Under the pieces are notes generated by a model. It was not told the origin of the DNA. It was given only the letters and a program-made list of their open reading frames with translations, and did no database searches. Of a stretch of 45,720 nt of DNA, positions 13,510-44,715 are shown one piece after another; position 1 is the stretch's first letter; every line of letters starts with the position of its first letter. Position numbers and translations under genes: made by a program. The DNA is from a virus. Location: positions 1-45,720 of the IMG/VR virus record IMGVR_UViG_3300027759_000141, one strand, 5' to 3'.

Positions 13510-13730
13510 TAACAGACGACCAACTTGGCGAATTATATTCCAAAAACTTAGCATTTGTAGATTCACTATGCGGCGAGTATGGTGCTATGGAAGTGGCCGC
13601 TATTATGATGACCCAAGCATTGACCATTTATAAATCAGCAATGTCTGAGCAAGACTATAATAATATGGTTGATAGTATCTCAGCAAGTAGAGACAAAGTT
13701 AAAACATTTGAAAGGCCGGTAATACAATGA
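13506..13730 (+). CDS. Small conserved phage protein, unknown
   Basis: 74 residues, helical and acidic, containing YSKNLAFVDSLCGEYGAM then AAIMMTQALTIYKSAMSEQD. No membrane segment is convincing and no motif is recognised. It is locked in a chain of four-base overlaps with the genes on both sides (13506-13509 and 13727-13730), so it is co-translated with the clamp loader subunit gp44. In T4 the neighbour of gene 44 is gene 62, but this protein is far too short to be gp62. Confidence 0.5.
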   Translation: MITDDQLGELYSKNLAFVDSLCGEYGAMEVAAIMMTQALTIYKSAMSEQDYNNMVDSISASRDKVKTFERPVIQ

Positions 13731-14641
13731 TTGAATTATGGGTAGAAAAATATCGGCCAAGTACTATAGACGGATACGTCTGGCGTGATGGCGGGCAAAA
13801 ACGCCAAGTAGAAAGTTGGATTAAAGACAAGTCAATTCCACACTTGTTGTTAAGCGGACCGCCAGGTATTGGCAAAACAACAATGGCTAAGATGTTGGTT
13901 AACGAAATTGGCATTGAAGATGCTGATGTACTAGAAGTTAACGCAAGTCGTGAAACTGGCATTGATTTTATTCGTAACAAAATTGTTCCGTTTATCAGTA
14001 GTATTGCATGGGGTCCATTTAAGGTTGTGTTACTAGACGAAGCAGATCGTCTAAGTCCACAAGCACAGGACTCGCTTAAAGGTATTGTTGAAGAGTACAG
14101 TAGCTTTGCTCGTTTTATTCTTACTTGTAATAATCCTAACATGGTTGTGCCAGCATTGCACAGTCGTTGCCAACAATTTCACTTTACTAAATTAGATCAA
14201 ACAGAATTTACAGCTCGTTCAGCAACAATATTAGTAGAAGAAAATGTAGAGTTTGATCTTGAAACTTTGGATTTGTATGTGAGTGCTACCTATCCAGATT
14301 TGCGTAAATGCATTAATATGCTACAGCAAAATACAAGCGAAGGTGCATTACACGCTCCTCACAAGGAAGATGCAAACAGTTTAGATTACAAGTTTGAAAT
14401 GGTCGAATTGTTTAAAGCAGGCAAAATTGATGTAGCACGTAAACTATTATGCGGCAAAGTAAGACCTGAAGAAATGAGTGATATTTTCCGTTGGTTGTAT
14501 GATAACGTGGAATTATTTGGCGACGAACAAAAACAATTTAAAGCAGTTCATATTATCAAACAAGGTATGATTGATCACACACTTGTAATGGATCCGGAAA
14601 TTAACCTTGCATCGGTGCTGGTTAGACTTACTAACATATGA
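13727..14641 (+). CDS. 44: Sliding clamp loader large subunit, gp44-like AAA+ ATPase
   Basis: 304 residues (T4 gp44 is 319). Starts with WVEKYRP, the classic N-terminal box of RFC/gp44 subunits. Walker A GPPGIGKT is at residues 44-51, Walker B LLDEAD at 102-107, and the SRC arginine-finger motif at 145-147; CNNPN sensor 1 lies at about 133-137. In T4 the gp44/gp62 complex loads the gp45 clamp onto primed DNA for gp43. The clamp gene is in this window (37274) but far away, and no gp62 candidate adjoins. The gene overlaps both neighbours by four bases. Confidence 0.95.
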   Translation: MIELWVEKYRPSTIDGYVWRDGGQKRQVESWIKDKSIPHLLLSGPPGIGKTTMAKMLVNEIGIEDADVLEVNASRETGIDFIRNKIVPFISSIAWGPFKVVLLDEADRLSPQAQDSLKGIVEEYSSFARFILTCNNPNMVVPALHSRCQQFHFTKLDQTEFTARSATILVEENVEFDLETLDLYVSATYPDLRKCINMLQQNTSEGALHAPHKEDANSLDYKFEMVELFKAGKIDVARKLLCGKVRPEEMSDIFRWLYDNVELFGDEQKQFKAVHIIKQGMIDHTLVMDPEINLASVLVRLTNI

Positions 14642-15901: not shown

Positions 15902-15927
15902 AAAGGGCCGCAATGGCCCTTTTTTTA
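15901..15927. terminator. Bidirectional terminator between convergent genes
   Basis: AAAAGGGCC (15901-15909) and GGCCCTTTT (15915-15923) form a 9 bp stem with loop GCAAT. A run of T follows on the + strand, and the A-rich left flank gives a T run on the minus strand. It sits in the 23 nt gap between the + strand gene ending at 15901 and phoH ending at 15925, so it serves both. Confidence 0.9.
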
Positions 15928-16644
15928 CGAGTCACCGTATAATGCTAATACCTCCTTAACTGCATTATGACGTTCAATATCTTTGTGGTCAAACTGCACA
16001 ATATTAATATGTTTTAAATTGGCTTTTGACTCTAGTAGGTTGCAAAAATTAATCAAGCCATTATCGTTTAATCTATCAGCTTGTGCAAGGTCTCCTGTAA
16101 CAACCATTTTAGAGTTTTCGCCCAGACGGGTTAATAACATCTTCATTTGGTTTACTGTTGCGTTTTGCATTTCATCTGCAATAATATAAGAATTTTTGAA
16201 AGTTCGACCGCGCATATAGGCTAACGGACTAATTTCAATCACTCCTTCATCTAACATTTTTGCAATGTCTTGCGTTTTGTAATACTCTCCTAAGACATCA
16301 AATATAGGTCTCGTCCAGGGTGCCATCTTTTCATTTAGCGTACCTGGTAAAAATCCTAAATCTTCGTCTACGGAGACGGCGGGTCTTGTAACGACTATTT
16401 TATCAACTAACCCTTCCTGGAACTGTTTAATGCCATGCATAACAGCTAACATAGTTTTTCCCGTACCGGCTGGGCCGATAGCAAGTACAATACTAGTTGC
16501 GTCATTGTCTAACATTTGCAAGTACGTTTTTTGATTTTGCGAACGAGCAGACATTGCTACACGTTGCTTCTTTTGTGGAAGGTATGGTTGAAAATCAATT
16601 ACTTTAACGTCTGATGTAAAGCGTTTTTTCACTCTTTTTGTCAT
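15925..16644 (-). CDS. phoH: PhoH-like ATPase
   Basis: 239 residues, the only gene on the minus strand. Walker A GPAGTGKT is at residues 57-64 and Walker B IIADEMQN at 154-161. The segment TRPAVSVDEDLGFLPG (about 86-101) and the MRGRTF motif are diagnostic of PhoH. TAGGAG precedes the start on its strand. Phage PhoH is widespread in aquatic T4-like viruses; proposed roles include RNA-related ATPase and phosphate-starvation functions, none settled. Its separate orientation suggests independent regulation; an inverted repeat lies in its leader. Confidence 0.93.
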   Translation of the reverse strand: MTKRVKKRFTSDVKVIDFQPYLPQKKQRVAMSARSQNQKTYLQMLDNDATSIVLAIGPAGTGKTMLAVMHGIKQFQEGLVDKIVVTRPAVSVDEDLGFLPGTLNEKMAPWTRPIFDVLGEYYKTQDIAKMLDEGVIEISPLAYMRGRTFKNSYIIADEMQNATVNQMKMLLTRLGENSKMVVTGDLAQADRLNDNGLINFCNLLESKANLKHINIVQFDHKDIERHNAVKEVLALYGDS

Positions 16645-33785: not shown

Positions 33786-36455
33786 ATGAGCTATGTAGAC
33801 GCATGGTTTGACCGCGAGAATGATATCATTAAAGTGGTTGAACGCAATAAGAAAGGCGAACGAGAGTTTCGCGACATTCCTGTAAAACACACGTTTTACG
33901 TTAAAGATGGAAAAGGTAAATTTCAATCCATCTACGGTGATCCTGTTTCGAGGATCATTTGTAAAAATACAAAAGAACTACGCAAAGAACAAGCTATCAA
34001 TTCAGGTAAGCAATTATTTGAAAGCGACATCAATCCAATTTTTGTTTGCCTAAGCGAACACTATCTAAATCAAGATGCACCAAAGTTAAATGTAGCCTTT
34101 TTTGATATTGAGGTTGACTTTGACCCAGAACGCGGCTATGCTAGCCCGGATGATGCGTTTATGCCTATTACTGCTATCGCAGTTAAGCTACAATGGATGG
34201 ATACAATGATCTGTTTGGCAATTCCTCCTAAGACGCTTACTATGGAAGAAGCTAAAGTACAAGTTGAAGAATTCCCTAATACATATTTGTTTGATAACGA
34301 AGCAGATATGTTAGACATGTTTTTAGACTTAATTCAAGACGCAGATATTTTAACTGGTTGGAATAGCGAGGGCTTTGATATTCCATATACAGTAAACAGA
34401 GTGACTAAAGTATTAAGCAAAGAAGATACACGCCGTTTCTGTTTGTTTAATCAATTTCCTAAACGTCGTGAATACGAAAAGTTCGGGCGTCAAAGTGTAA
34501 CCTATGACTTTATTGGTCGGGTACACTTAGACAGTCTTGAACTGTATCGTAAGTACACATATGAAGAACGTCACACATATCGATTGGACGCTATTGCCGA
34601 ATATGAATTAGGTCAGCGTAAAACACAATATGAAGGCACATTGGATCAGTTATACAACAATGACTTCCGCACATTCGTAGAATATAACATTAATGACTGT
34701 CAACTGTTAGACGATCTTGATAAGAAACTCAAGTTTATGGATCTTGCTAATACACTAGCACACGAATGTACTGTATTGCTACAAACTACAATGGGTGCTG
34801 TAGCTGTTACTGAACAGGCTATTATTAACGAGTGTCATCGCAGAGGCTTCCAAGTTCCTAATCGTACTAAAATGGAAGAGCGTGAAGACAACGAAGGTGC
34901 CGCTGGTGCGTATGTTGCCTATCCCAAAGAAGGTATTCAAGACTGGGTTGGATCGTTAGACATTAACTCATTGTACCCAAGTGCCATTAGAGCACTTAAC
35001 ATGGGTCCAGAAACTATTATCGGGCAGTTACGACAAACTAAAACACAAGAATACATTGACAATCAAACTGCCAAAGGTAAATCATTTGCCGCGGCATGGG
35101 AAGGAATGTTTGGTAGTGTAGAATATACAGCAGTAATGGGGCAGGAAATTGGCACTGATATTACTATCGACTGGGAAAACGGTGATAGCGATGTATTAAG
35201 TGCCGCGGAAACATACAGATTAATTTATGAAAGCAATCAGCCCTGGATGCTTTCGGCAAATGGCACTATTTTCACCTATGAGAAAGAAGGTATTATTCCA
35301 GGGCTACTAAAACGTTGGTATGCAGAACGTAAAGAGATGCAGGCCAAACTAAAGGAGGCTATTAATGCTGGTAACAAAATTGAAGAAGAGTATTGGGACA
35401 AGAGACAGTTGGTTAAGAAGATTAACCTTAACTCGCTCTATGGCGCCATTCTTAATCCTGGCTGTCGCTTTTTTGATAAGCGTATCGGCCAATCTACTAC
35501 CCTTACTGGACGTGCAATTGCCAAACACATGGCTGGAAAAGTCAATGAAATCATTGCAGGAGAATATAACCATGTGGGTAAAGCAATCATCTACGGAGAC
35601 ACAGACTCCTGTTACTTCTCCGCGTACAAAACCCTAAAGAAAGACATTGAAGCTGGTCTTATACCGTGGACTAAAGAAAGCGTTGTTCAATTGTACGATC
35701 AAATCGGCGAAGCAGTAAACGAAACATTTCCACAGTTTATGTTAGATGCTTTCCACTGTCCAAAGTCACGGGGCGAAGTGATTAAGGCCGGTCGTGAGAT
35801 TGTTGCTAGCAAAGGCTTGTTTATTACTAAGAAACGGTATGCGGTTCTTTACTATGATAAAGAAGGCAAGCGTAGTGACGTAGACGGCAAGCCGGGAAAG
35901 ATTAAGGCCATGGGCTTAGATTTGAAACGCAGTGACACTCCTGAATTTATTCAAAACTTTCTAAGCGACATTCTTGAAAAGGTATTAACTGGTGCTACTG
36001 AGCAAGAAGTGCTAGATCACATCAGTGAATTTAGATTAAAGTTTAAGAGTCGGCCGGGTTGGGAGAAAGGTAGTCCTAAACGTGCTAACAAGATTACCGA
36101 GTATCAGGCTAAAGAAGTTAAAGCAGGTAAAGCTAATATGCCTGGACACGTTCGTGCTAGTATTAACTGGAATACATTAAAACGTATGTTTGACGACAAG
36201 TATTCGATGCATGTCACTGACGGTGCTAAGGTTATTGTTTGTAAACTTAAACAAAACCCAATGGGCTTTACCAGTGTTGCATATCCTGTAGACGAATTGC
36301 GGTTGCCACAATGGTTTAAAGACTTGCCATTTGATGATGCCGAAATGGAGCAAACAATTATCGATAATAAACTTGATAATTTAATTGGTGTTCTTAACTG
36401 GGATATTACCAGTACAGAAGAAAAGAATACATTCAATTCACTATTTGAGTTCTAA
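33786..36455 (+). CDS. 43: Family B DNA polymerase, gp43
   Basis: 889 residues (T4 gp43 is 898). Exonuclease residues are intact: Asp107 and Glu109 in FFDIEVDFD, Asp199 in GWNSEGFDIP and Asp304 in YNINDCQLLDD. Polymerase motif A is DINSLYPSAI (from Asp392), motif B KKINLNSLYG (544-553), and motif C YGDTDS (603-608). The C-terminus NTFNSLFEF resembles the RB69 clamp-binding peptide. It replicates the phage genome with proofreading, held on DNA by the gp45 clamp encoded downstream. GGAG lies 5 nt before the ATG, behind a putative autoregulatory hairpin. Confidence 0.97.
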   Translation: MSYVDAWFDRENDIIKVVERNKKGEREFRDIPVKHTFYVKDGKGKFQSIYGDPVSRIICKNTKELRKEQAINSGKQLFESDINPIFVCLSEHYLNQDAPKLNVAFFDIEVDFDPERGYASPDDAFMPITAIAVKLQWMDTMICLAIPPKTLTMEEAKVQVEEFPNTYLFDNEADMLDMFLDLIQDADILTGWNSEGFDIPYTVNRVTKVLSKEDTRRFCLFNQFPKRREYEKFGRQSVTYDFIGRVHLDSLELYRKYTYEERHTYRLDAIAEYELGQRKTQYEGTLDQLYNNDFRTFVEYNINDCQLLDDLDKKLKFMDLANTLAHECTVLLQTTMGAVAVTEQAIINECHRRGFQVPNRTKMEEREDNEGAAGAYVAYPKEGIQDWVGSLDINSLYPSAIRALNMGPETIIGQLRQTKTQEYIDNQTAKGKSFAAAWEGMFGSVEYTAVMGQEIGTDITIDWENGDSDVLSAAETYRLIYESNQPWMLSANGTIFTYEKEGIIPGLLKRWYAERKEMQAKLKEAINAGNKIEEEYWDKRQLVKKINLNSLYGAILNPGCRFFDKRIGQSTTLTGRAIAKHMAGKVNEIIAGEYNHVGKAIIYGDTDSCYFSAYKTLKKDIEAGLIPWTKESVVQLYDQIGEAVNETFPQFMLDAFHCPKSRGEVIKAGREIVASKGLFITKKRYAVLYYDKEGKRSDVDGKPGKIKAMGLDLKRSDTPEFIQNFLSDILEKVLTGATEQEVLDHISEFRLKFKSRPGWEKGSPKRANKITEYQAKEVKAGKANMPGHVRASINWNTLKRMFDDKYSMHVTDGAKVIVCKLKQNPMGFTSVAYPVDELRLPQWFKDLPFDDAEMEQTIIDNKLDNLIGVLNWDITSTEEKNTFNSLFEF

Positions 36456-36456
36456 T

Positions 36457-37224
36457 ATGAAAATTATAATTGCCGGATACGGATTTGTTGGCAAGGCTGT
36501 TGCTAATGCATTACAATTGCAACATGAAATCATTGTACAAGATCCTAAATATACTGATTATAAAATGATCGACCATTATGATGCCGACGGTATCATAATC
36601 TGTGTTGGCACTCCCGAATTACCAAGTGGAGGCTGTGACTGTAAAGACATTGCTAGCGTATTAGATGATGTACCTGTTTTTATGCCAGTGTTGATTAAAA
36701 GTTCTGTCACCCCAGAAGTAATTAATGCGTTAGCTGAAATTTATCCGGATCACTGTATAACATACAGCCCAGAGTTTTTAAGAGCAAACACAGCAAATGC
36801 AGATTTTATCAATCAAAAGTATATAATTTTAGGTGGTGAAGATCCTGATTGTTTTTGGCAAGATCTGTTTACCACAGTATTAAAAAACTGTAAAATATAT
36901 TTTAATTGTACTGCTTTAGAATCAGCAATGGTCAAATACAGTATAAATGCATTTCTAGCAACCAAAGTTTCATTTTTTAACAACATATACGACTTGTGCG
37001 AGAAAAATGGAGCCGATTATGATGTTGTTAGACAACTTATTACACAAGATACTAGGATTGGTAACAGCCATACACTGGTACCAGGTGCAGATGGAGAGCG
37101 TGGATTTGGCGGCCACTGCTTTCCAAAAGATACTGCGGCCCTTATTCATTATGCCGAAAGCATTGGAATTGGGTTTGACATAGTCAATAGCGCCGTAAAA
37201 TACAACAAAAAGGCAAGAAAATAA
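36457..37224 (+). CDS. Short UDP-glucose/GDP-mannose dehydrogenase-like protein
   Basis: 255 residues from the ATG at 36457, 1 nt after the polymerase stop. Rossmann motif GYGFVG (7-12), ICVGTPELP (48-56), YSPEFLRANTANAD (103-116), helix MVKYSINAFLATKVSFFNN (158-176) and catalytic segment GFGGHCFPKD with Cys221 are all present. Full enzymes are about 390-440 residues; this one ends shortly after the catalytic Cys and lacks the C-terminal substrate-binding domain. UDP-glucose dehydrogenase makes UDP-glucuronate for surface polysaccharide or glycosylation. The short form may be a truncated, specialised or two-domain variant; activity is uncertain. Confidence 0.8.
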   Translation: MKIIIAGYGFVGKAVANALQLQHEIIVQDPKYTDYKMIDHYDADGIIICVGTPELPSGGCDCKDIASVLDDVPVFMPVLIKSSVTPEVINALAEIYPDHCITYSPEFLRANTANADFINQKYIILGGEDPDCFWQDLFTTVLKNCKIYFNCTALESAMVKYSINAFLATKVSFFNNIYDLCEKNGADYDVVRQLITQDTRIGNSHTLVPGADGERGFGGHCFPKDTAALIHYAESIGIGFDIVNSAVKYNKKARK

Positions 37225-37273: not shown

Positions 37274-38005
37274 ATGAAAGACATTTTACAAGACCTCGTA
37301 GCACATACACATAGCTTAGGATTTATTCCTCTAGTTAAAGTAAGTGCAGACACAACTAAAACAGAAATCGAAGCAATGGCTGAAGACCGTTCAGTAATTG
37401 TTAATGCAAAAACTAAAACTGTTGTCGACTCGTTTGACGGAGTATTTGGTATGCCTAATCTAAATAAATTGGATATTCACCTTAAGTGTCCAGAATATAA
37501 AGAGAATGCAAAAATTAATGTTGTTACCACAGTTCGTAACAACGAAACAATCCCCACAGGCTTGCATTTTGAAAATGCCGCTAAGGATTTTGAAAACGAC
37601 TATCGTTTTATGAATACCGAAATTATTAATGAAAAATTAAAATCGGTAAAGATGAGACCAGTTAACTGGGACATTGAATTTGAACCTAGCGTTACTAGCA
37701 TTCAAAGATTGAAAATGCAGGCAAACGCACACAGTGAAGAAAGTGTATTCCAAGTTCAAACAACTAACGGCAATCTAGTGTTTAGCTTTGGTGATGCAAG
37801 CACACATGCTGGTAGTTTTATTTTCCAAGCAAATATTGCTGGTAAACTAAAGCAGACATGGTCATGGCCAGTGAATCAAGTTATGAGTATCTTAGCATTA
37901 GCAGGCGATAAGACTATGCGTATTGCAGATGTCGGTGCTATGCAGATTACTGTAGATAGCGGAATGGCTGAATACAATTATATTTTACCAGCACAAAGCA
38001 AGTAA
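37274..38005 (+). CDS. 45: Sliding clamp, gp45
   Basis: 243 residues (T4 gp45 is 228). ATG at 37274 is preferred over 37262 because GGAG at 37264 is well spaced to it, whereas the upstream ATG would be almost leaderless. The protein has the clamp-type alternation of strands and helices (LVKVSADTTKTEIEAMAEDR, FGMPNLNKLDIHL, then VTSIQRLKMQA and GDASTHAGSFIF). The C-terminal domain ends DVGAMQITVDSGMAEYNYIL. The trimeric clamp tethers gp43 to DNA and, in T4, activates late transcription. Its clamp loader gp44 is at 13727. Its stop overlaps the following ATG by one base. Confidence 0.88.
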   Translation: MKDILQDLVAHTHSLGFIPLVKVSADTTKTEIEAMAEDRSVIVNAKTKTVVDSFDGVFGMPNLNKLDIHLKCPEYKENAKINVVTTVRNNETIPTGLHFENAAKDFENDYRFMNTEIINEKLKSVKMRPVNWDIEFEPSVTSIQRLKMQANAHSEESVFQVQTTNGNLVFSFGDASTHAGSFIFQANIAGKLKQTWSWPVNQVMSILALAGDKTMRIADVGAMQITVDSGMAEYNYILPAQSK

Positions 38006-39684
38006 TGAATCGTAACTTAACGGCAACACAAAACGACTATGCGTACTTCTTGCCGGCAACGTCGGGATTTTATAGTACGTTTATAGGAAAACAACGCTAC
38101 GGCAATTATGTAGACCCTGCACGGTTGCCTGCTAGTTTTATCAACGGCGTAGAAGGATTGAATTACTTAGAACCTGACAAGGGTATGTTTTATTTTGATC
38201 ATTGTTTATATTCAGCAGGCCATGCTAATTTAGATCTAAACAAAAAAGACGAAAGCGAAGACATGTTTCGTAACAGAGATCGCACAACCAGTTGGGTATT
38301 AGGCGACTCTGGAGGTTTTCAGATTGGTAAAGGTGTATGGGCAGGTGAATGGAAAGATCCTGACGGTCCAGAAGTACTGGCTAAACTACAAGAGTGTATT
38401 GCTAAAGGTGTTGAACTTATCCCAGTACTTGATGCCAGCGGCACACAAAAAGTTGATAAAAATGGAAATCCAAAGTTTATTAAGTTTGATCATGTTAAAG
38501 ATTATACTGTTAAATTAGAAGCCGCACAAAAGAAGCGTGAACAAGTGCTAGCATGGATGGATGCACTTATGGATTATGGTATGGTGCTTGATATTCCAGC
38601 ATGGGTAGAACGCAGTGAAGTTGGTAAGGCAGCTACCGGTATTGAAAGTTATGATCAAGCGGTTAATGCAACAAAATATAATAATGAATATTTTATCAAA
38701 CATCGAACAGGTGCATGTAAGTTCTTAAATGTATTACAAGGCGAAACACACTCACAAGCTGATGATTGGTATAGTAAAATGAAAGATTTTTGCGACCCCA
38801 AAATATACGGCGATAAAGCATTTAATGGTTGGGCTATGGGTGGCCAGAATATGTGCGACGTAGAATTAGTTTTAAAAAGATTAGTAGCATTGCGATTTGA
38901 CGGGCTCCTTGAAAAGGGTCAACATGATTGGATGCACTTCCTGGGCACCTCTAAGTTAGAGTGGGCAACTTTATTAACTGATATCCAACGATCTGTAAGG
39001 AAATACCATAATGAAAACTTTACCATCTCTTTTGATTGCGCATCGCCGTTCCTTGCCACAGCAAACGGACAAATTTATATTAACACCGAAACAGAACATG
39101 GCGAAAAATGGGTCTACCGTATGCAGGCTTCTGCAGACAACAAAAAATATTCAACAGACACCCGATTGTTTAAAGACGCAGTAATACAAGACAAGATTTT
39201 TGATAAATTCGAATCTAGTCCTATTATTGATCAAGTACAAATAAAAGATATTTGTATCTATGCACCCGGAGACCTAAATAAAAACAGTAAAGAAGGTAAA
39301 ACTTCTTGGGATAGTTTTAGCTATGCTATCATGATGGGTCATAATGTGTGGATGCATATTAATGCTGTACAAGAAGCCAATCGCCAATACGACAACAATG
39401 TTGCTCCCGATATGTTAATACAGAATTTAACAGGAAAATTATTTAAACATGCAGTAGACGAAATCTTTGCAATTAATGACAGAGATCAAGCACTAGCTAA
39501 GATTGAAGAATATAAAAGCTTCTGGATTACTATTATCGGAACACGTGGCGCAACAGGAAAGAAATTAATTAACGCACATACAATGGCAGACGAGTTGGAT
39601 ATTCCCCGAGTTGACTATAGCGACTTGAAACCTGTAAAAAACGAAGAGCCTAAAGAAAATAACTTTATGGACTTATTTGAGTAA
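38005..39684 (+). CDS. TGT-superfamily transglycosylase, DpdA-like, with clamp-binding-type C-terminus
   Basis: 559 residues. TGT hallmarks in order: LGDSGGFQIG with Asp101; LNVLQGETHS (241-250); GWAMGGQN (275-282); MHFLGTSKLEW (310-320); and FDCASPFLATANGQIY with Asp344 at the TGT nucleophile position (family FDCV-PTRxARNG). The CxCxxC zinc site of tRNA enzymes is not visible. TGTs swap guanine for a 7-deazaguanine in RNA; the DpdA branch does so in DNA and occurs in phages. The C-terminus NNFMDLFE resembles clamp-binding peptides such as the polymerase's SLFEF. It follows gp45 directly, with a one-base overlap. Family is firm; DNA as substrate is inferred. Confidence 0.8.
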   Translation: MNRNLTATQNDYAYFLPATSGFYSTFIGKQRYGNYVDPARLPASFINGVEGLNYLEPDKGMFYFDHCLYSAGHANLDLNKKDESEDMFRNRDRTTSWVLGDSGGFQIGKGVWAGEWKDPDGPEVLAKLQECIAKGVELIPVLDASGTQKVDKNGNPKFIKFDHVKDYTVKLEAAQKKREQVLAWMDALMDYGMVLDIPAWVERSEVGKAATGIESYDQAVNATKYNNEYFIKHRTGACKFLNVLQGETHSQADDWYSKMKDFCDPKIYGDKAFNGWAMGGQNMCDVELVLKRLVALRFDGLLEKGQHDWMHFLGTSKLEWATLLTDIQRSVRKYHNENFTISFDCASPFLATANGQIYINTETEHGEKWVYRMQASADNKKYSTDTRLFKDAVIQDKIFDKFESSPIIDQVQIKDICIYAPGDLNKNSKEGKTSWDSFSYAIMMGHNVWMHINAVQEANRQYDNNVAPDMLIQNLTGKLFKHAVDEIFAINDRDQALAKIEEYKSFWITIIGTRGATGKKLINAHTMADELDIPRVDYSDLKPVKNEEPKENNFMDLFE

Positions 39685-39721: not shown

Positions 39722-39973
39722 ATGACACTACCCGACGAACGCTATCGAGCAGTATTACAAACAGAAAGATTTTTAAAATTAATACTTTCTACTCCTCGAG
39801 TTCCAAAAGCAATTAAAGACGGTGCTAGACATTGTCTTAGACATTACCCTAGCGAATATGATATGAGTAAGGCCGCACAAACGAGTCCAGATATATTTGC
39901 TGAACGTATGGAAGATGTAACTCGAATGTTTAAAAAATATGAACAAACACAGGCAGAAAAAAATGAAACGTGA
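39722..39973 (+). CDS. Small conserved protein, BPSL0761-like
   Basis: 83 residues from the ATG at 39722; a TTG start at 39677 would overlap the TGT gene. Features MTLPDERYRAVLQTERFLKL, STPRVPKAIKDGARHCLRHY and PSEYDM. The P-x-ER-x-RAL, TPRVP and LRHYPS pattern resembles a family of small bacterial and phage proteins (BPSL0761 type) of unknown role. It is placed between the TGT-like gene and another conserved unknown, both with overlaps, so it likely belongs to the same transcription unit. Confidence 0.55.
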   Translation: MTLPDERYRAVLQTERFLKLILSTPRVPKAIKDGARHCLRHYPSEYDMSKAAQTSPDIFAERMEDVTRMFKKYEQTQAEKNET

Positions 39974-40490
39974 TTATACTAGTGGTGTAAGCGAAGATGT
40001 AACGTTCTTTGTAGGTACAGAAATTGAACGCACTCCTGCATTTGGTATGCGTACACTCTTTGTTGTAGGTACTCATGATGAACAAATCATTATCGGCCTA
40101 GCAAAGAATAATAACTGTACGCACATCTATTTTGGTGCTAATCAAAGTTTTCCCAGCCTAACTGTTAACAATAGTGCCGGTTGGAAACCTTGGGAAGACA
40201 TGATTAAAGGCTGTATTGATGCTGATTTTTGGTGTACATTAGACTTTGATGTGGCTCAACACGAGGGGCTTCTTGAAAGCGGTTTAACCGAATATCGTAG
40301 ATTTATTCCACAAATTAGTGTAAAATTACCTTATCTAAGTCAATTAGGCTATAATGCTACTATTAAGATAGATGATAAAGATTTTGAAGCAACTAATCCA
40401 GGTGTATGGTGTGTCCCAATTGGTGCCATTACACAACGCAAGTACTTTACCAATTGGGATGAATATACTAACGATGAAATTATCAAATGA
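39963..40490 (+). CDS. Conserved T4-like aquatic phage protein, unknown
   Basis: 175 residues from the ATG at 39963, overlapping the upstream gene by 11 nt. The conserved-looking block is VSEDVTFFVGTEIERTPAFG, MRTLFVVGTHDEQIIIGLAK and THIYFGANQSFP, then DADFWCTLDFDVAQHEGLLE. The alternating strands and helices suggest an alpha/beta barrel or Rossmann-like fold, but no cofactor or metal motif is clear. It overlaps the nuclease gene by four bases. Position between a TGT-like enzyme and a MutH-like nuclease suggests a part in the same DNA-related module, without direct proof. Confidence 0.5.
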   Translation: MKRDYTSGVSEDVTFFVGTEIERTPAFGMRTLFVVGTHDEQIIIGLAKNNNCTHIYFGANQSFPSLTVNNSAGWKPWEDMIKGCIDADFWCTLDFDVAQHEGLLESGLTEYRRFIPQISVKLPYLSQLGYNATIKIDDKDFEATNPGVWCVPIGAITQRKYFTNWDEYTNDEIIK

Positions 40491-41068
40491 TTACCAGCAC
40501 CGAAACACTTATCCTTAACATTATCAGGCACCAATTACTTGGCAAACAACTGCCAAGTAACATTCATGGAGACGCAGGACGAGCTTGTGAATCTCTATTG
40601 GAGAATATTGGCATTCATATTAATCGAGGAGCAGGATGCGACATTCCTGAAATTGGTTGGGAAGTTAAATGCCGTAAAGGAACTGCCACCAGTGCCCAAA
40701 CCGTGGCAACAATGCATCCAAATAATGTCATTATAACTCCTTGGGTATTTTCTCCAGTTTACGAAAAAATCCGTAAACAATTAAGGTTTACAACTGACGA
40801 TTTAGATGTTATAGTTGATATTGATTTATGTGACTTTGATCAACCACAAATACAAGAATTATTACAGACTGCATATGAACATGCAAGATCTTTAATTACA
40901 GCAAACCCTAGTATTACCTATACGCCATATGAAGGTTATTGGGGTTATTTTGAAAAAACAAAGAAAGATCGCCCAGAGCTTGATTTTAGACTAGCAGATG
41001 GCGATATGGAAAAACTACTAGCAATGACTAACTCGACTTTTCAGGATATATTTTCATATGGTAATTAA
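40487..41068 (+). CDS. MutH/Sau3AI-like PD-(D/E)XK endonuclease
   Basis: 193 residues. GAGCDIPEIGWEVKCRKG contains Asp52, Glu59 and Lys61; the spacing Asp+7 Glu+2 Lys is the same as the MutH active site (Asp70, Glu77, Lys79), and the intervening P-E-I-G also matches. Upstream, GDAGRACESLLENIG supplies the helix with Glu35 expected in this fold. MutH nicks and Sau3AI cleaves at GATC. The specificity here is unknown, and no partner methylase is seen in the window. It follows a base-modification candidate, so phage DNA may be protected by modification. Overlaps both neighbours. Confidence 0.7.
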   Translation: MITSTETLILNIIRHQLLGKQLPSNIHGDAGRACESLLENIGIHINRGAGCDIPEIGWEVKCRKGTATSAQTVATMHPNNVIITPWVFSPVYEKIRKQLRFTTDDLDVIVDIDLCDFDQPQIQELLQTAYEHARSLITANPSITYTPYEGYWGYFEKTKKDRPELDFRLADGDMEKLLAMTNSTFQDIFSYGN

Positions 41069-41453
41069 ACAAGACATCAGACCACTTAAAATGATATGGG
41101 TTACCTTTCGCAAAGAAGGCATACATAAATACCCTGCGGCGCTGACAGATCCAGCATTGGCTACAGGAGATGAATATGACGTATCGTTTTTGGGTTACCC
41201 TCATCGCCACATCTTTCATTTCAGGGTGTGGATCAATGTGCTCCACAATGATAGGGACATCGAGTTCATCCAGTTCAAACGCTGGCTCGAGTCACTGTAT
41301 AATGGTCAAGGTGCCGTTCTAAGCCTTGACTACAAGAGTTGTGAAATGATGTCAGACGATCTGTTTGATGTTATTTCCAATAAGTATCCGGGTCGTGAGA
41401 TCTGGATTGAGATCTCCGAAGACGGAGAAAATGGTTCATTTATCAAATATTAA
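41058..41453 (+). CDS. Conserved phage protein, possible T-fold (QueD/PTPS-like)
   Basis: 131 residues (a second start at 41091 would give MIWVTFRKEG). A His-rich strand, GYPHRHIFHFRVWINV with His49, His51 and His54, is followed by IEFIQFKRWLESLYNG, then MMSDDLFDVISNKYPG and REIWIEISEDGENGSF. This order (His-rich strand, D/E-F-x-x-K/F-K helix, then V-x-V-x-E strand) is like the 6-carboxytetrahydropterin synthase QueD/PTPS family. That family is in the 7-deazaguanine pathway and would fit the TGT-like neighbour. Residue identity is low, so the link is tentative. It overlaps the nuclease gene by 11 nt. Confidence 0.45.
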   Translation: MVIKQDIRPLKMIWVTFRKEGIHKYPAALTDPALATGDEYDVSFLGYPHRHIFHFRVWINVLHNDRDIEFIQFKRWLESLYNGQGAVLSLDYKSCEMMSDDLFDVISNKYPGREIWIEISEDGENGSFIKY

Positions 41454-41467
41454 AATAAGAGGCTATT

Positions 41468-41725
41468 ATGGCTAAGAATTACAAAGACTACGCATATTTT
41501 GAAAACCGTCCTGACGTTGTAAGGATCTTTGATGATCTTGAGAAACTGTTAGATTTTTGCCGTATCGAAATGCTACCTTTTAACGAGGCAGACTTGTATA
41601 ACCGTCAATCAAGAGTTTGGCAACAATACGAGCGTAGCACACGCCCACGCAAACCATGGAACGGAGAGCGCAAACCTTACTTAGGTAAGAATCCCCGCCC
41701 ACAAACTACTAGGCAATACAATTAA
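41468..41725 (+). CDS. Small basic conserved phage protein, unknown
   Basis: 85 residues. Starts AKNYKDYAYFENRPDVVRIF, then a helical segment LEKLLDFCRIEMLPFNEADL, and ends in a basic Pro/Arg-rich tail (STRPRKPWNGERKPYLGKNP). Proteins with this layout occur in T4-like phages of aquatic bacteria, with no known role. The basic tail could contact nucleic acid. It is preceded by AAGAGG and shares one base with the next ATG. Confidence 0.5.
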   Translation: MAKNYKDYAYFENRPDVVRIFDDLEKLLDFCRIEMLPFNEADLYNRQSRVWQQYERSTRPRKPWNGERKPYLGKNPRPQTTRQYN

Positions 41726-42822
41726 TGACTATATTTCTAGTTGATCTAGAAGCAGTTGAAACCAGGTACACGGGTCAATGGAAGACTCATGTACCTGATC
41801 TCTTACGAAAGGCAGGACACAATGTTCAAGTTATATCTGGGCCTGAAGATATTCCTTCAGCCACTACTCCTGGTGCTTTTCTTAATTTTGGTGGCACCAA
41901 TATATACAAGTCTGCTCAAGTTGAACAGATGGGCCGTTTATTTTGCTCCGGATCAGTGGCTCCTGGCGATCACTTCATCTTTACTGATGCTTGGCACCCT
42001 GGCATCATAAACTTAAAGTATATGAGTGAATTACTGGGCATACCAGTAACTACACACGGACTGTGGCATGCCGGCAGTTATGATCCTCAAGACTTTCTTG
42101 GACGTATTGTAGGAAATAAGCCCTGGGTACGTAATGCAGAGAAAAGTTTCTTCCACGCATTTGACCACAACTACTTTGCCACCGACTTTCATATCAAAAT
42201 GTTCTATACAAATTTACTAAATGATTATCCTACAGAGAATCCTTGGTATAGCGAACATTTAGAAGAAATTCTAAACGGTGAAGAACCAAAGATTGTACGC
42301 ACAGGCTGGCCAATGGAATATTTTCAAGATACTCTTGCACCTTATAAAGGTATAAAGAAACGAGATATGATTTTGTTCCCGCATCGTATTGCTCCAGAAA
42401 AACAAGTTGAGATTTTTAGAAACTTAGCAGAACACTTACCGCAATATGAGTTTGTTGTGTGTCAAGACAAACAACTTACTAAGCATGAATATCACACCCT
42501 ACTAGGCCAAGCTAAAATGGTGTTCTCTGCTAACCTGCAAGAAACACTTGGTATTAGTTGGTACGAGGGTGCAGTAGTAGATGCTATACCTATGGTGCCA
42601 GACAGATTAAGCTACAGTGAAATGGCATTTGATACATTCAAATATGATAGTGCCTGGACTGAAAGCTATGATGCATACGACTCTGCAAGACCAGCTGTAT
42701 GTAATAAGATCATTCAATATATGAATCATTACGAACAGTTCTTGCCACAAGTTCGTAAACAAACGGAGGCGTTACATGAGTTTTACTTCTCAGCAACCAA
42801 CTTGCTTAACAACATTAAATGA
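41725..42822 (+). CDS. GT-B type glycosyltransferase
   Basis: 365 residues. The N-terminal domain has Rossmann-like strands (TIFLVDLEAVETRYTGQWK, HVPDLLRKAGHNVQVISGPE). The C-terminal domain shows the GT4-type nucleotide-sugar region: MILFPHRIAPEKQVEIFRNL, QYEFVVCQDKQL, LGQAKMVFSANLQETLGISW, then YEGAVVDAIPMVP, with the E-x-x-G-x-x-x-x-E spacing seen in retaining glycosyltransferases. It may glycosylate phage DNA, a virion protein or host surface; the UDP-sugar dehydrogenase at 36457 hints at UDP-sugar use. It lies after the DNA-modification block. The substrate cannot be told from sequence. Confidence 0.68.
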   Translation: MTIFLVDLEAVETRYTGQWKTHVPDLLRKAGHNVQVISGPEDIPSATTPGAFLNFGGTNIYKSAQVEQMGRLFCSGSVAPGDHFIFTDAWHPGIINLKYMSELLGIPVTTHGLWHAGSYDPQDFLGRIVGNKPWVRNAEKSFFHAFDHNYFATDFHIKMFYTNLLNDYPTENPWYSEHLEEILNGEEPKIVRTGWPMEYFQDTLAPYKGIKKRDMILFPHRIAPEKQVEIFRNLAEHLPQYEFVVCQDKQLTKHEYHTLLGQAKMVFSANLQETLGISWYEGAVVDAIPMVPDRLSYSEMAFDTFKYDSAWTESYDAYDSARPAVCNKIIQYMNHYEQFLPQVRKQTEALHEFYFSATNLLNNIK

Positions 42823-44010: not shown

Positions 44011-44227
44011 ATCAGTTAGAGATAGCTACAAAGAAATGGTTATCAAAGAACACGAAGGCTTTAGACTTACTCTAAAGAAACACGAAGTACTAAGCCCTAA
44101 AGGCTTGTTTAGTATTGACATGATTCAAGAAAGTTTAGAAGACGGTAAAGTTACCGACAGCCAAACATACAATTTCTTTATGACTAAAGAAGAGTGTCAA
44201 ACATTAGCATACGGATTGACACAGTGA
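43997..44227 (+). CDS. Small unknown protein upstream of phosphoribosyltransferase
   Basis: 76 residues from the ATG at 43997, chosen because AGGAG (43986-43990) is correctly spaced; an ATG at 43991 is too close to it. Charged, with SYKEMVIKEHEGFRLTLKKH and TYNFFMTKEECQTLAYGLTQ. It overlaps the preceding gene by 14 nt and the next by four bases. No family recognised. Confidence 0.5.
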   Translation: MELHESVRDSYKEMVIKEHEGFRLTLKKHEVLSPKGLFSIDMIQESLEDGKVTDSQTYNFFMTKEECQTLAYGLTQ

Positions 44228-44715
44228 AAAAAGTATATTATACTTGGCAACAAGTAGAAGGTGCTTGTTTAGATATTGCTAGACAGATGCATAATCACAA
44301 CTGGCGGCCAGATTATATTGTTGGTATTACGCGAGGCGGACTTGTTCCTGCTAATTTGCTTAGTCAATATACTGGCATTAAAATGAACAGCTTGGACATT
44401 AGTCTACGTGATGGTGGAGATTGCGTCAGTAATTGCGGCATGGCAGAAGATGCATTTGAAGGCAAAAAGATTCTTGTAGTAGACGATATTAACGATCAAG
44501 GATCAACTGTTAATTGGATTAAAAAAGATTGGGAGTCAAGTGCATTACCTGGTCACCCTAATTGGGAATCTATTTGGGGAGATTCAGTTCGCTTTGCAGT
44601 ACTAACACACAACCAATCAAGTACATTTAAAGATCCAGACTACTATGTGTGGACTGTAAACAAAGCAGAAGAAGACTGTTGGTTGGTTTATCCCTGGGAG
44701 GAGTTTTGGTTATGA
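44224..44715 (+). CDS. Phosphoribosyltransferase
   Basis: 163 residues with a GTG start at 44224 in a GTGA overlap with the previous stop. The PRPP-binding loop ILVVDDINDQGST is at residues 83-95, and the first loop GITRGGLVPANLLSQ at 34-48, as in type I phosphoribosyltransferases of the xanthine/hypoxanthine-guanine group. It would salvage a purine base by joining it to PRPP. The hood (SLDISLRDGG) and the C-terminal Trp-rich end (EDCWLVYPWEEFWL) define base choice but do not allow a firm assignment. Salvage of guanine or a deazaguanine precursor is possible and would suit the TGT-like gene. Confidence 0.82.
   Translation: MKKVYYTWQQVEGACLDIARQMHNHNWRPDYIVGITRGGLVPANLLSQYTGIKMNSLDISLRDGGDCVSNCGMAEDAFEGKKILVVDDINDQGSTVNWIKKDWESSALPGHPNWESIWGDSVRFAVLTHNQSSTFKDPDYYVWTVNKAEEDCWLVYPWEEFWL

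Follow-up and report, generated by a model that had tools for sequence, protein, structure and literature searches.

A putative clamp-tethered DNA transglycosylase of the TGT superfamily encoded beside the sliding clamp gene of a virus with a T4-type replisome

The window, by which we mean the whole stretch of DNA analyzed here, is a virus contig of 45,720 bases with a family B DNA polymerase, a clamp loader subunit, a predicted sliding clamp and a protein of the tRNA-guanine transglycosylase (TGT) type (Table 1). The polymerase lies two genes upstream of this last enzyme, the ORF of which begins 1 nt inside the stop of the clamp gene (TAATG), so that the clamp gene is indeed directly upstream, as the earlier note on this DNA had placed it. 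Synteny was followed over 171 compared sequences, where the clamp was found in 166, the enzyme in 164 and the polymerase in 156.

Table 1. Features of the window discussed in the text
Feature	Position	Strand	Basis or remark
Clamp-loader large subunit (AAA+)	13727..14641	+	AAA 3.8e-15, DNA_pol3_delta2 1.9e-12, Gp44_lid 0.001
Family B DNA polymerase, T4/RB69 type	33786..36455	+	phrog_262 E 1.2e-200; T4-type polymerase structures E 1.8e-61
NTFNSLFEF, predicted clamp peptide at polymerase C-terminus	36426..36452	+	
Predicted PCNA/gp45-type sliding clamp, 247 aa	37262..38005	+	AF2 model, Foldseek
TGT/DpdA-like transglycosylase, 559 aa	38005..39684	+	Fold search; closest profile DpdA2 of nt-1
DSGGFQ motif, D101	38305..38322	+	Counterpart of TGT active-site Asp; same motif at E. 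coli Tgt D89
FDCASPFLATANGQIY, D344, predicted nucleophile	39031..39078	+	Alignment to E. coli FDCVMPTRNARNGHLF
NNFMDLFE, predicted clamp-binding peptide, C-terminal tip of disordered tail	39658..39681	+	
Glycosyltransferase-like gene, conserved	41725..42822	+	Downstream of enzyme in 112 loci including PA5oct

Several neighboring genes recur in related loci. Between the polymerase and the clamp there is a UDP-glucose dehydrogenase-like gene (36385-37224; phrog_9148, E 4e-40; 70 loci), and two conserved genes of unknown function (39939-40490 and 41058-41453; 127 and 125 loci) separate the enzyme from the glycosyltransferase-like gene. Farther downstream is a phosphoribosyltransferase (44194-44715; PF00156, E 7e-14; 44 loci). 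Apparently, only one gene of the window is on the minus strand (15925-16644), PhoH-like as judged by eye from its P-loop sequence.

No Pfam family was accepted for the clamp gene, and its PHROG is labeled as of unknown function. Since its profile gave only chance-level ribosomal matches against PDB sequences, a fold search was required. An AlphaFold2 model built from an alignment of 58 relatives (pLDDT 94.5) was compared with the PDB by Foldseek, and only PCNA-type clamps appeared among the 50 matches listed (E from 2.2e-11, prob 1.00); on the basis of this modeled fold, the product is a PCNA-type clamp. The position of NTFNSLFEF in the polymerase is one that we take to be equivalent to the clamp peptide of the RB69 and T4 polymerases.

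The enzyme proved similarly difficult to classify by sequence. Searches of Pfam, NCBIfam and PDB sequences with phmmer and hmmsearch returned nothing usable, no Pfam or NCBIfam sequence match placed it among the core tRNA TGTs (PF01702), and the PHROG search gave only a weak match to an unnamed family. The earlier note had assigned the protein to the TGT superfamily from two active-site signatures; with these searches empty, the signatures alone are insufficient, and the family call, which stands, rests on fold and profile-profile evidence because the sequence libraries name no match. All 50 listed PDB matches of the AlphaFold2 model (31 relatives, pLDDT 77, with a disordered tail of pLDDT <50) were TGTs, with E values from 3.8e-7 and prob 1.00, and the model has the TGT-type TIM barrel, with a modest TM score to TGT of about 0.47 by target length. 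Matches in a library of viral structures (BFVD) included a Motura TGT (2.2e-9) and the DpdA2 of nt-1 (1.6e-7). In profile-profile comparisons with hhalign, DpdA2 of nt-1 and pf16 aligned over the region spanning D101 to D344 (prob 93, E 2.6e-7), while E. coli Tgt matched only weakly (prob 52, E 1.4e-4). The HMM search against TGT and DpdA families suggested earlier came back empty from Pfam and NCBIfam and pointed to DpdA2 only at the level of profiles. The nt-1 DpdA2 has no BLAST-level similarity to the window enzyme and forms a separate branch, and a unification with DpdA1 (9g) at the profile level was rejected (hhalign prob 0.3-2.3). The intermediate confidence of the model, its modest TM score, the weak E. 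coli Tgt match and the lack of a DpdA1 match all count against the explanation that we favor below.

The TGT motifs are collinear in the enzyme (DSGGFQ, LDxP, NVLQG, GWAMGG, HFLGT, FDCASP, NGQ and HN), providing the set expected of the superfamily, namely, Asp in the DSGG[FY]Q and FD contexts, then QG, G-x-A-x-GG and LG, in order. Both aspartates singled out before, D101 and D344, are present and did not change in an alignment of 20 diverse homologues, D344 within a conserved FDCASP..NGQ context. However, the zinc site of tRNA TGTs (CxCxxC..H) is missing, and only HN(V) and C417, the single invariant cysteine of the family in the alignment with homologues, are kept. Also missing are the arginines that tRNA TGTs have after the nucleophile (FDCASPFLATANG versus FDCVMPTRNARNG, with FLATA instead of TRNAR). 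In the Z. mobilis TGT these arginines face the anticodon. The fold, the DpdA2 profile and the missing zinc cysteines and arginines therefore support membership in a DpdA2-like DNA transglycosylase branch of the superfamily rather than among the tRNA TGTs, DNA as the substrate being inferred. An enzyme that alters host or phage tRNAs during infection, with a clamp-like tail that is merely incidental, would have the same fold, and queuosine is also served by the deazaguanine pathway. We nevertheless regard this possibility as very improbable, given the losses just described, the overlap of the enzyme and clamp genes, the absence of any tRNA gene found in the window and the closeness to DpdA2, a family whose source phage has had its DNA modification measured (PMC6884629).

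At least 343 stretches of viral contigs carry a close homologue of the enzyme, and more distant homologues are those of PA5oct-like Pseudomonas phages, Vibrio phage 2.275.O and Sinorhizobium phage Phosso. Scanning viral sequences directly with the enzyme of PA5oct or of the Vibrio phage gave nothing; a query made from an alignment was needed, and it confirmed at least 597 stretches, a set that may overlap with the 343. The gene adjoining the Phosso TGT is not a recognizable clamp. In PA5oct (L082 5608-10834), the DNA polymerase gene is annotated as split, a Hef-like homing endonuclease separating its two parts. Three enzyme-bearing phage loci (L085, L086 and L088) belong to contigs whose labels name Pacearchaeota, Neomarinimicrobiota and Phycisphaerae MAGs; mis-binning of phage DNA is the probable cause.

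Genes of the 7-deazaguanine pathway were sought in 32 longer enzyme-bearing records. FolE and QueE were each present in 28 of them, which supports 7-deazaguanine DNA modification, and PTPS/QueD in 16; QueD was not found in the other half, which counts against the favored explanation, though many of the records are fragments. Neither FolE nor QueE is in the window, which can be explained by its end 6 kb downstream of the enzyme: in a relative whose enzyme is 91% identical (G001/L007), they are found 8.6 and 9.7 kb downstream, respectively. The DNA-modifying role proposed in the earlier note is therefore supported by this FolE, QueE and QueD context together with the lost zinc site and arginines, with DNA as the inferred target. 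Modification as such is not new, since a system for deazaguanine synthesis and incorporation was already noted in PA5oct by Iyer et al. (PMC7824862). Because a full-length QueC match appeared in only 1 of the 32 records, the inserted base is most likely 7-carboxy-7-deazaguanine or a derivative, an identity that remains inferred. PA5oct has FolE, two PTPS and QueE without any QueC match, and we infer the same base or one derived from it, provided that QueC is not supplied by the host. Vibrio phage 2.275.O encodes QueF-like, YhhQ, QueC, FolE and QueE proteins shortly after the enzyme. It is possible, by inference only, that the product of the glycosyltransferase-like gene further decorates the inserted base; its PA5oct homologue has a weak Glycos_transf_1 match (E 0.0011).

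The loss of the zinc site and the low similarity to any enzyme studied so far would also fit a TGT relative with altered catalysis, which might remove or sense modified bases or serve a structural purpose. In PA5oct, the homologue of the clamp is even annotated as structural on the basis of mass spectrometry, hinting that replication proteins enter particles. Yet both catalytic aspartates are invariant, the substrate-pocket motifs are largely kept, and FolE and QueE co-occur with the enzyme, so that we give this option hardly more than token weight, and a base-inserting DNA transglycosylase remains our preferred reading.

The C-terminal tail of the enzyme varies in its linker, past which homologues retain F-x-x-LF-[DE] or near variants. 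Among 90 sequences below 90% identity, the pattern [FYM]..[LFIM]F[DEGT] was found in 62 tails, while 1,000 shuffles of each tail gave 2.1 on average and never more than 7. Within the window, only the polymerase and the enzyme end with the motif. The resemblance that the earlier note had seen between NNFMDLFE and the polymerase end NTFNSLFEF holds in other phages as well, since the tails of enzyme and polymerase resemble each other within a phage. Thus, Vibrio phage 2.275.O has NNTDLFDW at the end of the polymerase and NNNDLFGW at that of the enzyme, and FF replaces LF in the enzyme tail of 6/6 non-redundant phages with an FF(E) polymerase versus 2/76 with an LF polymerase (Fisher 8e-8). The tips compared are related, and parsimony indicates two independent polymerase switches, the enzyme matching both. 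The 349-kb genome of Vibrio phage 2.275.O has just three genes with a terminal LFxW, those of the polymerase, the enzyme and a 74-aa protein. This third protein (NVP2275O_204, MG592671.1; L171 1214-1438) is zinc-finger-like, ends in SSLFEW and is a candidate new clamp client. In eight contigs similar to the window, the polymerase was the only real gene seen with an LF[DE]F end; where two related contigs gave further LF[DE]F-stop matches, these were dismissed as tiny chance frames. Motifs of this kind mediate the binding of gp45 to T4-type polymerase, ligase, gp33 and gp55 (PMC7892883). Conservation, matching with the polymerase and synteny therefore support the suggestion that the tail is of the clamp-binding type used by the polymerase, the binding itself being inferred from sequence without binding data. 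Some tails, which we count against it, have a degenerate motif or carry the motif 30 to 40 residues before the end. A second tail type (L043, L048, L054, L070, L078 and many of L091-L170) has LF at this distance followed by an acidic segment, often ending in D..KL..LE, possibly a second docking motif.

A comparable motif was found in the already characterized DpdA1 family. Phage 9g has, in this order, the genes for polymerase, clamp, DpdA, FolE and QueD, and its DpdA ends in ERLQDLFDE; the ends of eight other annotated DpdA1 proteins are IQELF, VMELF, IQGLF, QMELF, QPELF, EQRLF, QPGLF and RQRRLF. We compared 66 non-redundant DpdA1 proteins from viral contigs with 657 other ORFs of the same loci as controls. 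[LFMI]F within 3 residues of the end was present in 65/66 versus 10/657, and a Q..[LFM]F (QxxLF) tail in 46/66 versus none of the 657. A beta-clamp gene follows within 1.5 kb downstream in 64/66 (median, 166 nt). Both the bacterial consensus for the clamp motif, QL[SD]LF, and the QLGLF end of E. coli Pol II have been described (PMC3716654), and several DpdA1 tails end in exactly QLGLF. The tail is missing from two mycobacteriophage DpdA proteins and from the DpdA2 of nt-1, KVP40-like phages and pf16. A clamp tail in every DpdA2 was accordingly rejected. Insertion into DNA as such can thus do without the tail, a point against the explanation favored below. In one marine pair of DpdA2 proteins, the end is LEELF.

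Taken together, we consider it quite probable that the window encodes a TGT-superfamily DNA transglycosylase docked by its tail on a PCNA-type clamp, so that modification follows replication; binding, DNA substrate, timing and base are inferred. The phage would have a T4-type replisome and be a relative of PA5oct and other jumbo phages. The TIM-barrel core would swap guanine in DNA for a free 7-deazaguanine made by the phage, and the flexible C-terminal peptide would hold the enzyme on the clamp pocket shared with the DNA polymerase, in which case guanine in newly replicated DNA would be exchanged. In the DpdA1 family, an equivalent arrangement may exist with a QxxLF motif matched to the phage beta-clamp. 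The tail of a DNA transglycosylase could instead contact another replisome or phage protein, such as the clamp loader, SSB or a dimer partner, because there are no binding data and the extra acidic segment past the motif in many homologues suggests a second partner. We find this unlikely, as the enzyme and the polymerase end in peptides of one type that change together, and DpdA1 has a textbook beta-clamp motif. Returning to docking on the clamp, gp45 binding by T4 alpha-glucosyltransferase barely affected the level of modification in T4 (PMC13216743), which weighs against it in that tethering may tune rather than determine it.

The enzyme tail and the QxxLF tails of DpdA1 together indicate that clamp tethering, with binding inferred, is probably widespread among phage DNA transglycosylases. 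We also think it likely, with somewhat less assurance than for the window enzyme itself, that it is a general strategy that arose at least twice, on PCNA/gp45-type clamps in the jumbo-phage branch (FxxLF[DE]) and on beta-clamps in DpdA1 (terminal QxxLF), coupling guanine exchange to the passing fork. Phages would then probably disguise their own DNA during copying. The claim that no clamp-tethered DNA transglycosylase had been described holds in the literature searched, qualified by the gp45-bound T4 enzyme and by the DpdA1 motif, for which no report was found there either. No title or abstract joining DpdA or 7-deazaguanine with a clamp was found, and the word "clamp" is absent from Hutinet 2019 (PMC6884629); a prior mention cannot be excluded, with the subscription literature mostly uncovered. 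The motif links base modification with replication and offers a sequence-only way to tell DNA-acting from tRNA-acting TGT relatives. It bears on how DpdA finds its target, on about 30% versus about 0.1% modified guanines and on cover ahead of restriction enzymes, questions that the terminal motif of DpdA makes testable in a laboratory coliphage, by deleting or replacing one to five residues.

Among known systems, bacterial and archaeal tRNA TGTs have the fold and the collinear active-site motifs in common with the enzyme, which differs in lacking the zinc ligands and arginines and in its DNA replication context. The DNA-modifying DpdA2 of nt-1 and pf16 (Hutinet 2019, PMC6884629) is likewise of the TGT superfamily, with the profile match given above, and is accompanied by FolE, QueD and QueE, here known from relatives of the window. 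Unlike the window enzyme, it lacks the C-terminal clamp motif, as does that of KVP40-like phages, and the nt-1 gene does not adjoin a clamp gene; its system has the full preQ0 pathway including QueC, and only about 0.1% of G is modified in nt-1. A direct homologue is PA5oct gp168 (Wroclawvirus; 33% identity), annotated in GenBank as hypothetical, in which the motif FNSLFD is internal and for which no mention of clamp tethering was found in the literature searched. DpdA1 (9g, CAjan, Queuovirinae) shares with the enzyme DNA transglycosylation, a clamp-type C-terminal motif and a gene beside the phage clamp and polymerase, but is only about 300 aa long, without detectable similarity between the profiles, and has QxxLF for a beta-clamp instead of FxxLF[DE] for a PCNA-type clamp. 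Finally, T4 alpha-glucosyltransferase (Sommer 2004; PMC13216743) belongs to another enzyme class and glucosylates hydroxymethylcytosine without base exchange; as a phage DNA-modifying enzyme bound to the gp45 sliding clamp, it is a precedent in kind.
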